From assembly GCA_016899975.1 (NCBI GenBank), contig JACJJN010000025.1, positions 1-49,085 on the forward strand: DNA of 49,085 bases. The letters are read 5' to 3'. The translations under genes and the position numbers were made by a program. Positions within the stretch are counted from its first letter, which is position 1, and every line of letters begins with the position of its first letter. The DNA is from Lacrimispora saccharolytica (lineage in GTDB: Bacteria > Bacillota > Clostridia > Lachnospirales > Lachnospiraceae). Of this stretch, positions 35,983 through 38,902 are shown piece by piece. The notes under the pieces were generated by a model, which was not told the origin of the DNA, ran no database searches, and worked only from the letters and a program-made list of their open reading frames with translations.

Positions 35983-37500
35983 ATGGTTAATGTTATCGTA
36001 CAATTATCAAAATATCTGATCACGCTTCTGATGGTGCTTTTTACCGTTCAGTCTTTTCTGGCGCTGCGGGAGAGGGATGAGGAAGAGAGAAGCTACATTC
36101 TTGAAAAGCAGATCCTTATGATCCTGCTGATGAACTTTATCTGCTTTTTCGTCATGTACCTTCAGGAACGGGAGTTTTATATTATCAAGATGTTCCTGTG
36201 CACGCTGGGATATCTTCTGGGTGTGCAGGTGGTGTACCGGCTGTTGTTTAAAAAGGCGTCCATGATCCTTCTGAACAATATGTGTATGCTGCTGTGTATC
36301 GGTCTGATCATGCTTACAAGGCTGAACGCTGCCAGAGCGGAGACGCAGTTTAAGATCATTGTGATATCCACGCTGCTTTCGTTCATCGTTCCGGTGATCA
36401 TCCGCAAAGTAAAAATACTGAAAGATCTGACCTGGCTGTACGGAATCGCCGGTCTTTTGATGATCGGAGCGGTGCTTGTGCTTGCTGTGACCTCGAGAGG
36501 CGCCAAGCTTTCCATCCAGTTCGGAGGGGAAAACGGATTTACCTTCCAGTTTTCTGAATTTGTCAAGATCACTCTTGTATTCTTTATGGCCGGTATGCTC
36601 CGGGAGGACAATTCCTTCCGGAAGGTTGTGATCACTACCGTGGTGGCGGCGCTGCATGTGCTGATCCTGGTGGCATCCACGGACCTTGGAACCGCGCTGG
36701 TGTATTTTGTGGCTTATGTGGTGGTCATTTATCTGGCGACGCGAAAGCCCGTGTATCCGCTGCTTGGTCTGGGAGGCATGGCGGTCGCCTGTGTGGCGGC
36801 GTATTTTCTTTTCAGTCATGTGCGTACCAGGGTTCAGGTCTGGAGGGATCCTTTCAGCAATTATGATGCGGGTTACCAGGTGATCCAGGCGCTGTTCGGA
36901 CTGAGCTCCGGCGGCTGGTTCGGAACCGGATTGTTTGAGGGATCGCCCACAAGCATCCCGCTTGCGACGATGGATGCGACGTTCTGTGCGATCTGCGAGG
37001 AGATGGGCGTTATTTTTGGAATCTGCCTGATCCTGCTCTGTATGTCCATGTTCCTTTTGATTGTCAACATTTCGATGAAGATGAACAAAAGATTTTATAA
37101 ACTGATCGCGATGGGCCTCGGCTCTGAGTACGCGATCCAGGTATTCCTGACCATCGGGGGGATCACAAAGTTTATTCCGCTGACAGGTATCACGCTGCCG
37201 CTGGTAAGCTACGGCGGAAGCTCCATGCTGTGTACCATTTTGATGTTCTCGATCATTCAGGGACTGTATATCTTAAGGGAAGACGAAGGTGAAGCGCTTG
37301 CGAAAAGAAACAAACAAAAACGGAAAAAGTCAAAAACAACCGCAAAAACCGGCTCGGGACCGGCAGACAAAACGTCAGGGAACGCCGGCAGGAAAAAGCC
37401 GCAGCCAACAGGCCGCGGAACGGGAAGAACAGACATCCCGGAAGAAGACGACCTCGGACGGAGAATCGAAGAACAGACAGAAAAAAGCCTCCGCTGGTAA
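35983..37500 (+). CDS. FtsW/RodA/SpoVE-family peptidoglycan polymerase
   Basis: A 505-residue SEDS protein with about ten or more membrane spans. The family marks are seen: QFSEFVKITLVFFMAGML, STDLGTALVYFVAY, the loop YQVIQALFGLSSGGWFGTGL and the C-terminal KFIPLTGITLPLVSYGGSSM. It polymerises lipid II into glycan strands with a partner class-B PBP, here encoded next door. The last 75 residues are a cytoplasmic Lys/Arg/Pro-rich tail (ALAKRNKQKRKKSKT on) that is also read in the +1-shifted frame as the start of the PBP. RBS AAGGGGA. An extra set of spans precedes the usual start of the family, as in actinobacterial-like rodA-pbpA pairs. Confidence 0.9.
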   Translation: MVNVIVQLSKYLITLLMVLFTVQSFLALRERDEEERSYILEKQILMILLMNFICFFVMYLQEREFYIIKMFLCTLGYLLGVQVVYRLLFKKASMILLNNMCMLLCIGLIMLTRLNAARAETQFKIIVISTLLSFIVPVIIRKVKILKDLTWLYGIAGLLMIGAVLVLAVTSRGAKLSIQFGGENGFTFQFSEFVKITLVFFMAGMLREDNSFRKVVITTVVAALHVLILVASTDLGTALVYFVAYVVVIYLATRKPVYPLLGLGGMAVACVAAYFLFSHVRTRVQVWRDPFSNYDAGYQVIQALFGLSSGGWFGTGLFEGSPTSIPLATMDATFCAICEEMGVIFGICLILLCMSMFLLIVNISMKMNKRFYKLIAMGLGSEYAIQVFLTIGGITKFIPLTGITLPLVSYGGSSMLCTILMFSIIQGLYILREDEGEALAKRNKQKRKKSKTTAKTGSGPADKTSGNAGRKKPQPTGRGTGRTDIPEEDDLGRRIEEQTEKSLRW

Positions 37501-38902
37501 TCCGGGACGGCCGTATTTTATCGTGTCTTATCTGTTTATCGGTATTTTCCTGTCTCTGATCGCGTACCTGGTTTACTTCAATGTGACACAGAAAGAGACG
37601 TATCTGAGCGATTCTCATAATACCCGACAGAAGGATTATGCGGAGAAGGTCATCCGCGGAAGCATCATTTCCTCGGACAATGTGGAACTGGCGCGTACCG
37701 ATGTGGATGAGGAGGGAAATGAGACAAGAGTATATCCTCATGCGGAACTTTTTGCCCATGTGGTCGGGTATCTGAGCAAAGGAAGCAGCGGCCTGGAGGC
37801 CACGCAAAACTATCAGCTGCTGGAATCCCATGCCGATCCGCTGGAACGGCTGAAAAACGAGTTTAAGGATCAGAAGAATATTGGTGACAATGTGATCACC
37901 ACCATCAACTCCCATATGCAGCAGGTAGCCTACGATGCATTGGGGGATCATAAGGGCGCGGTGATCGCTCTGGAACCGGATACGGGAAGGGTGCTGGTGA
38001 GCGTCAGCAAGCCTTCCTTCAATCCGAATAATATTGATGAGGAATGGGAAAGCCTGAACGCGGACAGTGACAGCGGAGTGTTCCTGAACCGGGGACTTCA
38101 GGGCCAGTATCCGCCGGGATCAACGTTCAAGATCGTAACGGCCCTGGCGTATCTGCGTCAGAATCAGACGGTGGACGGCTTTTCCTTCGACTGTGAGGGA
38201 GAACTGACCAGCGGAAACTATACGCTCCACTGCGCGGGCAACAGCGTTCATGGGCAGCAGGATTTTTACGAAGCGTTTGCCAATTCCTGCAATACGGCGT
38301 TTGCTACGATCGGACTGTCTCTGGACAAGGGAGGATTTCAGACGCTTGCAGACAGCCTGTATCTGAACAGCAGGCTGGATCTGGAACTGCCGACCAGCCG
38401 CTCCCGCTTTTCTGTGGACAGTTCCACGGCGGAGGCGCTGATGATGCAGACTTCCATCGGTCAGGGAAATACGGTGGTTACGCCGATGGAGATGGCTCTG
38501 ATCACCGCGGCGGTGGCAAATGACGGTGTGATGATGAAACCATATTTTGTAGACCGGGTGGAATCGCACGACGGAACACTGGTGGAGGAATACGAATCCG
38601 AACGTCTGGCGGAGGTGATGAGTACCTCGGAAGCAGATAAGCTGACGGAGCTGATGCTTGGCGTTGTGAAAGACGGTACGGCAAGATCCCTCAATGATCT
38701 GGATTACAATATTGCGGGAAAAACCGGTTCGGCGGAACATGGAGATATGACGGAGGATACTCATTCCTGGTTTGTCGGATTTTCCAACGCGGAGGATCCG
38801 GATCTGGTGGTTGCTGTGATCGCGGAGGCTGCCGGAAGCGGAAGTTCCGTGGCGACTCCGATCGCCCGTCAGGTTTTTGAAGCATATTACGGAGACCGTT
38901 AA
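37289..38902 (+). CDS. Penicillin-binding transpeptidase (class B, PBPA-like)
   Basis: A 537-residue D,D-transpeptidase. Start GTG 37289 behind AAGGGA (8-nt spacing) lies 212 nt inside the preceding SEDS gene. The N-terminal 72 residues are basic, low complexity and cytoplasmic; one span follows (IVSYLFIGIFLSLIAYLVYF), then the outside part. Catalytic motifs: STFK (278-281), SCN (333-335), KTG (478-480). No in-frame ATG, GTG or TTG with an RBS exists before the membrane span; GTG near 37522 would cut into it. Size and the SEDS partner recall mycobacterial RodA-PbpA. It cross-links new glycan made by its partner. Confidence 0.88.
   Translation: MKRLRKETNKNGKSQKQPQKPARDRQTKRQGTPAGKSRSQQAAEREEQTSRKKTTSDGESKNRQKKASAGNPGRPYFIVSYLFIGIFLSLIAYLVYFNVTQKETYLSDSHNTRQKDYAEKVIRGSIISSDNVELARTDVDEEGNETRVYPHAELFAHVVGYLSKGSSGLEATQNYQLLESHADPLERLKNEFKDQKNIGDNVITTINSHMQQVAYDALGDHKGAVIALEPDTGRVLVSVSKPSFNPNNIDEEWESLNADSDSGVFLNRGLQGQYPPGSTFKIVTALAYLRQNQTVDGFSFDCEGELTSGNYTLHCAGNSVHGQQDFYEAFANSCNTAFATIGLSLDKGGFQTLADSLYLNSRLDLELPTSRSRFSVDSSTAEALMMQTSIGQGNTVVTPMEMALITAAVANDGVMMKPYFVDRVESHDGTLVEEYESERLAEVMSTSEADKLTELMLGVVKDGTARSLNDLDYNIAGKTGSAEHGDMTEDTHSWFVGFSNAEDPDLVVAVIAEAAGSGSSVATPIARQVFEAYYGDR

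Follow-up and report, generated by a model that had tools for sequence, protein, structure and literature searches.

The extracts consulted of a 338-genome survey (PMC2478687) report that none of the co-directional overlaps longer than 60 bp is real and class such cases as annotation errors; the longest real one, holD-rimI of Enterobacteria, reaches up to 56 bp, is conserved and is visible as similarity in the ends of both proteins, which are unrelated to each other. The NTGA (-4) and -8 nt coupled pairs, as the consulted parts of PMC12548453 and PMC10666635 present them, are co-directional overlaps between genes for subunits of one complex. In overprinted bacterial genes, exemplified by extracts of PMC4683798, new coding content lies over an existing frame, and long phase-1 overlaps have been explained without selection (PMC3887535, in extract). 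SEDS-PBP pairs with a PbpA-type PBP consist of a PF01098 gene followed by a PBP gene with a PBP_dimer_2 domain.

The SEDS-PBP overlap described here shares features with each of these systems. Like holD-rimI in the extracts of PMC2478687, it is conserved and affects similar ends of both proteins; unlike holD-rimI, it extends over 203–212 nt, joins presumed complex partners, occurs in most of a family-level set of loci, and selection was measured in both of its frames. It is co-directional and links presumed partners, as in the -4/-8 coupled pairs, but is far too long for termination-reinitiation; the homologous junction of Actinobacteria mostly has the -4 form, and overlaps of 8–14 nt are possible in other Clostridia. 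Overprinting yields a new gene in PMC4683798, as far as the extracts go, whereas here a terminal motif of an existing protein overlies the tail of its partner. Outside the family-level set, SEDS-PBP pairs mostly overlap by 4 nt and their tails are short, whereas the tails here are long and apparently doubly coded. A search of titles and abstract beginnings in the open-licence literature found no publication on a SEDS-PBP overlap. Measured against the extracts of the 338-genome survey (PMC2478687), the pair seems to be a counterexample for which many loci can be compared; it combines presence in most of the family-level sample, constraint in both frames, a shorter outgroup form and a clade-limited motif. 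About 200 bases in a gut bacterium are apparently read in two frames, both kept by selection, which is rare for neighbouring bacterial genes; the passage from short overlap to long double coding, and the steering of a cell-wall synthase by doubly coded tails, thereby become testable. The explanation that we consider best as a whole, at a probability of roughly 85%, is a genuine long same-strand overlap with two functional frames, independent initiation of the PBP, and tails grown by internal insertion.

The window, i.e. the whole stretch of 49,085 nt from Lacrimispora saccharolytica that was analysed, carries a SEDS-family glycosyltransferase gene on the forward strand at 35983–37500 (505 aa; PF01098, E = 1.5e-53), one of four PF01098 matches in its own genome of 3.25 Mb. 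It is followed on the same strand by a class B PBP gene, which in its longest form, from a GTG, occupies 37289–38902 (537 aa) and in a Pfam search matched PBP_dimer_2 (PF21922, E = 3.6e-11), the PbpA-type domain, and the transpeptidase domain (PF00905, E = 1.8e-55). The locus is thus a SEDS-class B PBP pair of the PbpA type, and the families suggest that the products are partners of one enzyme complex with polymerase and transpeptidase activity. The genes overlap at 37289–37500 on the forward strand (212 nt from the GTG, 203 nt from a TTG at 37298), the PBP being read in the +1 frame relative to SEDS, so that PBP codon position 1 is SEDS position 2. The PBP frame is open from 37277, with the GTG at 37289 as its first start, and both frames run uninterrupted across the overlap in proteins assignable to known families. 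The original prediction of a 212-nt same-strand overlap in different frames agrees with these coordinates, and the AAGGGA that it placed 8 nt before the GTG is found at 37275–37280. The PBP transmembrane span, as read from the translation (37514–37579, forward strand), begins 14 nt after the SEDS stop codon ends. At the other end of the SEDS protein, about 95–99 N-terminal residues, hydrophobic stretches included (window 35983–36280), precede the family match.

To compare this junction among relatives, we assembled a family-level set of 158 loci, of which three are in-frame SEDS-PBP fusions and 155 are non-fused. The set includes 30 loci and the 60 next-ranked ones, the best among 183 family genomes that gave a PBP match, together with genus-level loci and the family-like part of the best 80 of 594 named loci; a few family-like loci are named only as Eubacteriaceae, Clostridia or Bacillota MAG. 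The loci come mainly from the top of the similarity ranking, and near relatives of the window are over-represented. The larger junction set leaves out the window itself (L001), a locus that is cut off (L008) and two paralogues (L009 and L010), and L078, L099 and L102 are without a SEDS match. The nearest among the best 80 of the 594 named loci is a Fusicatenibacter MAG (L039; 82% PBP identity), which is probably the same as L003; it is within the 155 but was excluded from the pair, codon-bias, start, tree, recoding, distance, motif and charge counts. Some near-duplicates (L046/L162) stay in the set.

The results showed that the PBP frame enters the SEDS gene in the same phase in all of the first 34 family loci and in 142 of the 155 non-fused family-level loci. 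Possible PBP starts before the membrane span lie only inside the SEDS gene in 121/155 loci, both inside and outside it in 21, and in 13 there is none inside; several of these 13 have a poor SEDS match that is perhaps not the true neighbour (L061, L082, L153, L189 and L197). Thus the overlap is conserved in orthologues, as expected of a true long co-directional overlap, and an artefact of start-site choice is unlikely from these sequences, since the phase is so widely shared and most loci offer a pre-span start only inside SEDS. Among 20 extra family regions outside the 155, one had no SEDS match (L203) and one was a fusion (L198); of the other 18, 16 had phase +1 and 15 an internal start, with none in L204, L215 and L217, although L200 and apparently L210 repeat loci already counted. 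Four further family loci (L219–L222) all combined phase +1 with a start inside SEDS. Outside the family-level set there were 31 non-fused loci, mostly Actinobacteria: 28 were in the other phase, and among the 29 whose starts were all internal, 27 overlapped by 4 nt when the nearest start was taken.

If the SEDS frame alone coded within the overlap, its synonymous sites would vary freely, and the same holds for the PBP frame, so that suppression in both frames indicates coding in both. At positions where two relatives share an amino acid, we therefore set the observed codon differences against those expected from non-overlapping sequence, amino acid by amino acid (O/E). Over 57 disjoint family pairs, O/E was 0.57 (0.48–0.68) in the SEDS frame and 0.44 (0.34–0.55) in the PBP frame. 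The corresponding values were 0.54 and 0.33 within the genus, and 0.62 and 0.36 in a clade of 25 loci, where control blocks of 70 codons gave 0.96–0.99. Two further controls, the PBP membrane span and the unshared PBP tail past the SEDS stop, gave 0.93 and 0.85, respectively, the latter from few sites (44 vs 51.9). Observed changes were fewer than expected in 43/57 pairs for the SEDS frame and 40/57 for the PBP frame; the 14 and 17 pairs not below expectation mostly had 10 or fewer comparable sites. The pair L036/L040, which is long and of low complexity, showed no suppression in either frame (31/25.9 and 16/14.6). These two loci have very long low-complexity SEDS tails, inside which the PBP frames are open for 419 and 674 nt.

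The distribution of variable sites over SEDS codon positions in four genus members points in the same direction. In the overlap the values were 0.33/0.22/0.42, a pattern not expected from either frame by itself; the SEDS core gave 0.13/0.06/0.65, and the PBP past its span, by codon position, 0.18/0.10/0.70. The most conserved position of the overlap is non-synonymous in SEDS and is the first in the PBP codon. Alignment of the junction across relatives with measurement of synonymous-site constraint, the comparison proposed together with the original prediction, thus gave a shared phase and suppression in both frames. Purifying selection in both frames is what a true long co-directional overlap should show, and it supports dual coding as judged from the sequences; the two-frame constraint goes beyond the selection-free model in the extracts of PMC3887535.

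Only the PBP frame might be functional, with the SEDS tail being a run-off that ends at whichever stop comes first by chance. Outside the clade with a C-terminal motif (see below), many SEDS tails indeed look of low complexity and vary in length, and overlap length is labile on the tree. However, such a run-off does not account for the suppression of PBP-frame synonymous changes (0.44 over the family pairs and, within the genus, 0.04 for the final 20 codons), nor for the conserved motif ending in W-stop. Simulated run-off had a median length of 26 nt, against 98 nt observed, and the SEDS stop lies no more than 40 nt upstream of the PBP span, or inside it, in 98/131 loci. When the PBP amino acids of the window were fixed and the codons redrawn, the SEDS frame was open for as long as observed in 1.5% of draws; the same recoding gave P ≤ 0.05 in 63/131 and P ≤ 0.01 in 41/131 loci (131 of 136 loci were used, the remainder having short or unreadable tails). 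Taken together, we consider a run-off very unlikely.

Conversely, the SEDS frame might be the only functional one in the overlap, and the PBP might start later, e.g. at the GTG at 37523, which would retain most of the membrane span. In the reverse recoding, the PBP frame stayed open in 64% of draws for the SEDS tail of the window (median over loci 58%), so that its openness alone proves little; it is unremarkable because hydrophilic tails rarely yield +1 stops. Against a late start, the first start past the SEDS stop in congeners lies only from 91 nt (L003) or 82 nt (L004) on, at or beyond the end of the span, and 121/155 loci have no outside start before the span. The suppression of SEDS-frame synonymous changes (0.57) and the constraint on TTG-forming third bases at one codon of the SEDS gene, described next, also argue against it, and a late start is highly improbable. 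Functional coding in both frames remains the preferred reading.

To locate the PBP start, we compared relatives around a conserved arginine of SEDS, using an R-E-D-E anchor pattern whose narrow form matched 63 loci and whose widened forms matched 93/154 loci (codon bias) and 108/141 loci (start positions). Possible starts recur at R+2, R+4 and R+7. At R+7, T stands in the third place, where it makes TTG, in 51 of 54 L/I/V/F codons preceding G (21.9 expected), and in 24/26 (11.8 expected) when one locus per 70% cluster is taken. In the window, this codon gives the TTG at 37298–37300 on the forward strand, with a Shine-Dalgarno-like GAAGG at 37285–37289, 8 nt upstream. The earlier statement that no alternative PBP start with a ribosome-binding site exists before the membrane span therefore did not hold, the TTG being backed by relatives. 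Judged by this third-base constraint, the likeliest start is the TTG, with an overlap of 203 nt, and not the GTG at 37289. The GTG is possible with the Shine-Dalgarno-like AAGGGA (37275–37280, forward strand), which lies inside the SEDS codons for L-R-E; the GGT from which it derives is retained in the six genus members listed. The start codon is thus uncertain among R+2, R+4 and R+7, but both the GTG and the TTG lie deep within the SEDS gene. Gene callers that penalise overlap may misplace such a start.

Codon usage around the arginine is of the kind that an embedded Shine-Dalgarno sequence would need. The leucine codon before it is TTA in 38 of the 72 loci having leucine there, compared with 434 of 5136 leucine codons elsewhere in the same genes, and the arginine codon itself is AGA or AGG in 67/93 loci, against 496/1199 for other arginine codons; P values for this bias are overstated, as the loci are related. 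We infer that translation of the PBP most likely begins independently on the SEDS mRNA. It would start just behind the last SEDS membrane helix, from a Shine-Dalgarno-like sequence and a start codon of the PBP's own, the TTG at 37298 being the likeliest and the GTG at 37289 the alternative, while the SEDS frame would continue and stop beside the PBP membrane span.

The overlap might instead serve chiefly to couple translation, by reinitiation or by ribosome-driven unfolding, and so keep a 1:1 ratio of the products. That SEDS and PBP are presumed partners of one complex would fit such a role, as would the short overlaps that other Clostridia may have, given that termination-reinitiation needs short overlaps according to the extracts of PMC10666635. 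In the extracts of PMC12548453, however, reinitiation is reported to fall off with overlap length and to be lost by -25 nt (Tian and Salis as cited there), whereas stop and start here are 203–212 nt apart rather than within about 25 nt, and termination-reinitiation over such a distance is unlikely by this comparison. Three predicted folds of the window at the PBP start showed nothing unusual (z 0.42, 0.60 and 0.71), and thus gave no sign of a start sequestered in a stable structure, as coupling through RNA unfolding would involve. Coupling also does not predict constraint in two frames along the whole overlap. The suggestion that the overlap locks the translation of the two partners together thus found no support, the PBP having its own Shine-Dalgarno-like sequence, and we regard coupling as the chief role as improbable.

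Another way to produce the PBP would be mainly as a SEDS-PBP fusion, through +1 frameshifting or slippage within the overlap. In-frame fusion genes exist: L055, L073 and L076 (3/158 family-level loci) and, in addition, L198 are SEDS-PBP fusions in a single frame, accounting for four changes on the tree. Near the end of the overlap there is also a run of A's within GAAAAAAG, a sequence present in 19 of 26 motif loci inspected. The run is, however, explained by the E-K-S codons, and the conserved start codons, the Shine-Dalgarno-like codon bias and the separate start of the homologous pairs outside the family set, mostly with a 4-nt overlap (27/29 as above), all speak against production by frameshifting, which we hold to be extremely unlikely; independent initiation is preferred. 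In the window, GAAAAAAG lies at 37480–37487 with six A's in a row and could allow slippage between frames. With neither frame interrupted, one small insertion or deletion within the overlap could be enough to produce a fusion. The linkers of the fusions L055, L073 and L076 are hydrophilic. An Actinomycetota MAG (L112) also has a single ORF with SEDS and class B PBP domains.

The origin of the long overlap was approached with 45 loci from other families of Clostridia, 43 of them with a SEDS match. The phase was the same in 36/43, and 8/43 had no internal start. In the 34 phase-1 loci with an internal start, the start nearest to the SEDS stop gives an overlap of 8–14 nt in 27 and of 8–23 nt in 33. 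If the first possible start is taken instead, 8–14 nt is obtained in only 15/34, with overlaps of up to 86 nt, which weakens any claim about the older state; the true PBP starts in other Clostridia are uncertain. A median of 115 nt separates the SEDS GGSS motif from the PBP span in other Clostridia, compared with 223 nt in the family, where the first PBP start stays close to the SEDS core, 70–85 nt behind GGSS (middle half; starts less than 60 nt behind GGSS were set aside in the distance table). These sequence comparisons suggest that Clostridia probably had at first a short overlap in the same phase, within which the long one probably arose as both tails gained length. On the simplest reading, the SEDS C-terminal and PBP N-terminal tails would have grown together through insertions in threes between ends that stayed roughly in place. 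The overlap length is labile, as the label 'at least 60 nt' changes 34 times on the tree.

Two earlier expectations can be read against these distances. Over-extension of tails had been offered as a source of the gene pair: both tails did apparently grow between roughly fixed ends, but the distances do not indicate that one gene ran over the other. Orthologues lacking one of the tails had been named as evidence against the overlap. Such orthologues turned up only in part: by median, the two tails are jointly shorter in other Clostridia, and within the family-level set 13/155 loci have no PBP start inside SEDS and 21 have starts on both sides of its end.

In the family, the tails are presumably cytoplasmic and membrane-proximal, and may serve localisation of the synthase or partner contact within the SEDS-PBP complex. 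Both had been described as basic, which holds for the PBP tail of the window (+15 over 73 residues) and for its SEDS tail as a whole (+9 over 69), but not for the last 19 SEDS residues, which have a charge of -3 and hold a conserved motif. In the window, this region of SEDS reads EEDDLGRRIEEQTEKSLRW-stop (37441–37500, forward strand), and the same bases encode the PBP segment KKTTSDGESKNRQKKASAG. The motif, with the consensus [LFIM]xxxIxE(E/Q)TxxS(L/I)xW-stop at the SEDS C-terminus, was found in 27/136 loci, and in every case it overprints the basic juxtamembrane segment of the PBP before the span. It requires two changes on a FastTree tree of 218 rows, and its history would be either one gain and one loss or two gains. 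A conserved SEDS motif ending in Trp, tightly clustered on the tree, is overprinted on the PBP segment in one clade of Lachnospiraceae. Over the last 20 codons, synonymous O/E in the PBP frame amounted to 0.04 within the genus and to 0.25 within the clade.

Modelled as a helix, the 17-residue SEDS end is amphipathic, with a moment above 95% of shuffles in 15/27 motif loci. In all 27 motif loci its net charge lies between -4 and 0 (median -1); the roughly 51 bases that encode it yield PBP residues with a charge of +1 to +9 (median +7). The SEDS C-terminus and the basic PBP segment encoded by the same nucleotides might bind each other at the inner membrane face, although we consider this improbable. 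A single insertion could create such matched partners, since GA-rich codons encode Glu in one of two frames offset by +1 and Lys or Arg in the other. It speaks against a general contact of this kind that in 72 other loci with an overlap of at least 54 nt both segments are basic (medians +2.5 and +3).

A GpsB-binding pattern is [ST]RxxR[KRG]. A match to it is absent from the PBP tail of the window; among 135 PBP tails, 11 have one, compared with 5.4 expected from shuffles. The PBP tails of L019, L022, L028, L035, L038 and L157 contain stretches similar to it, SRRDRK for example.
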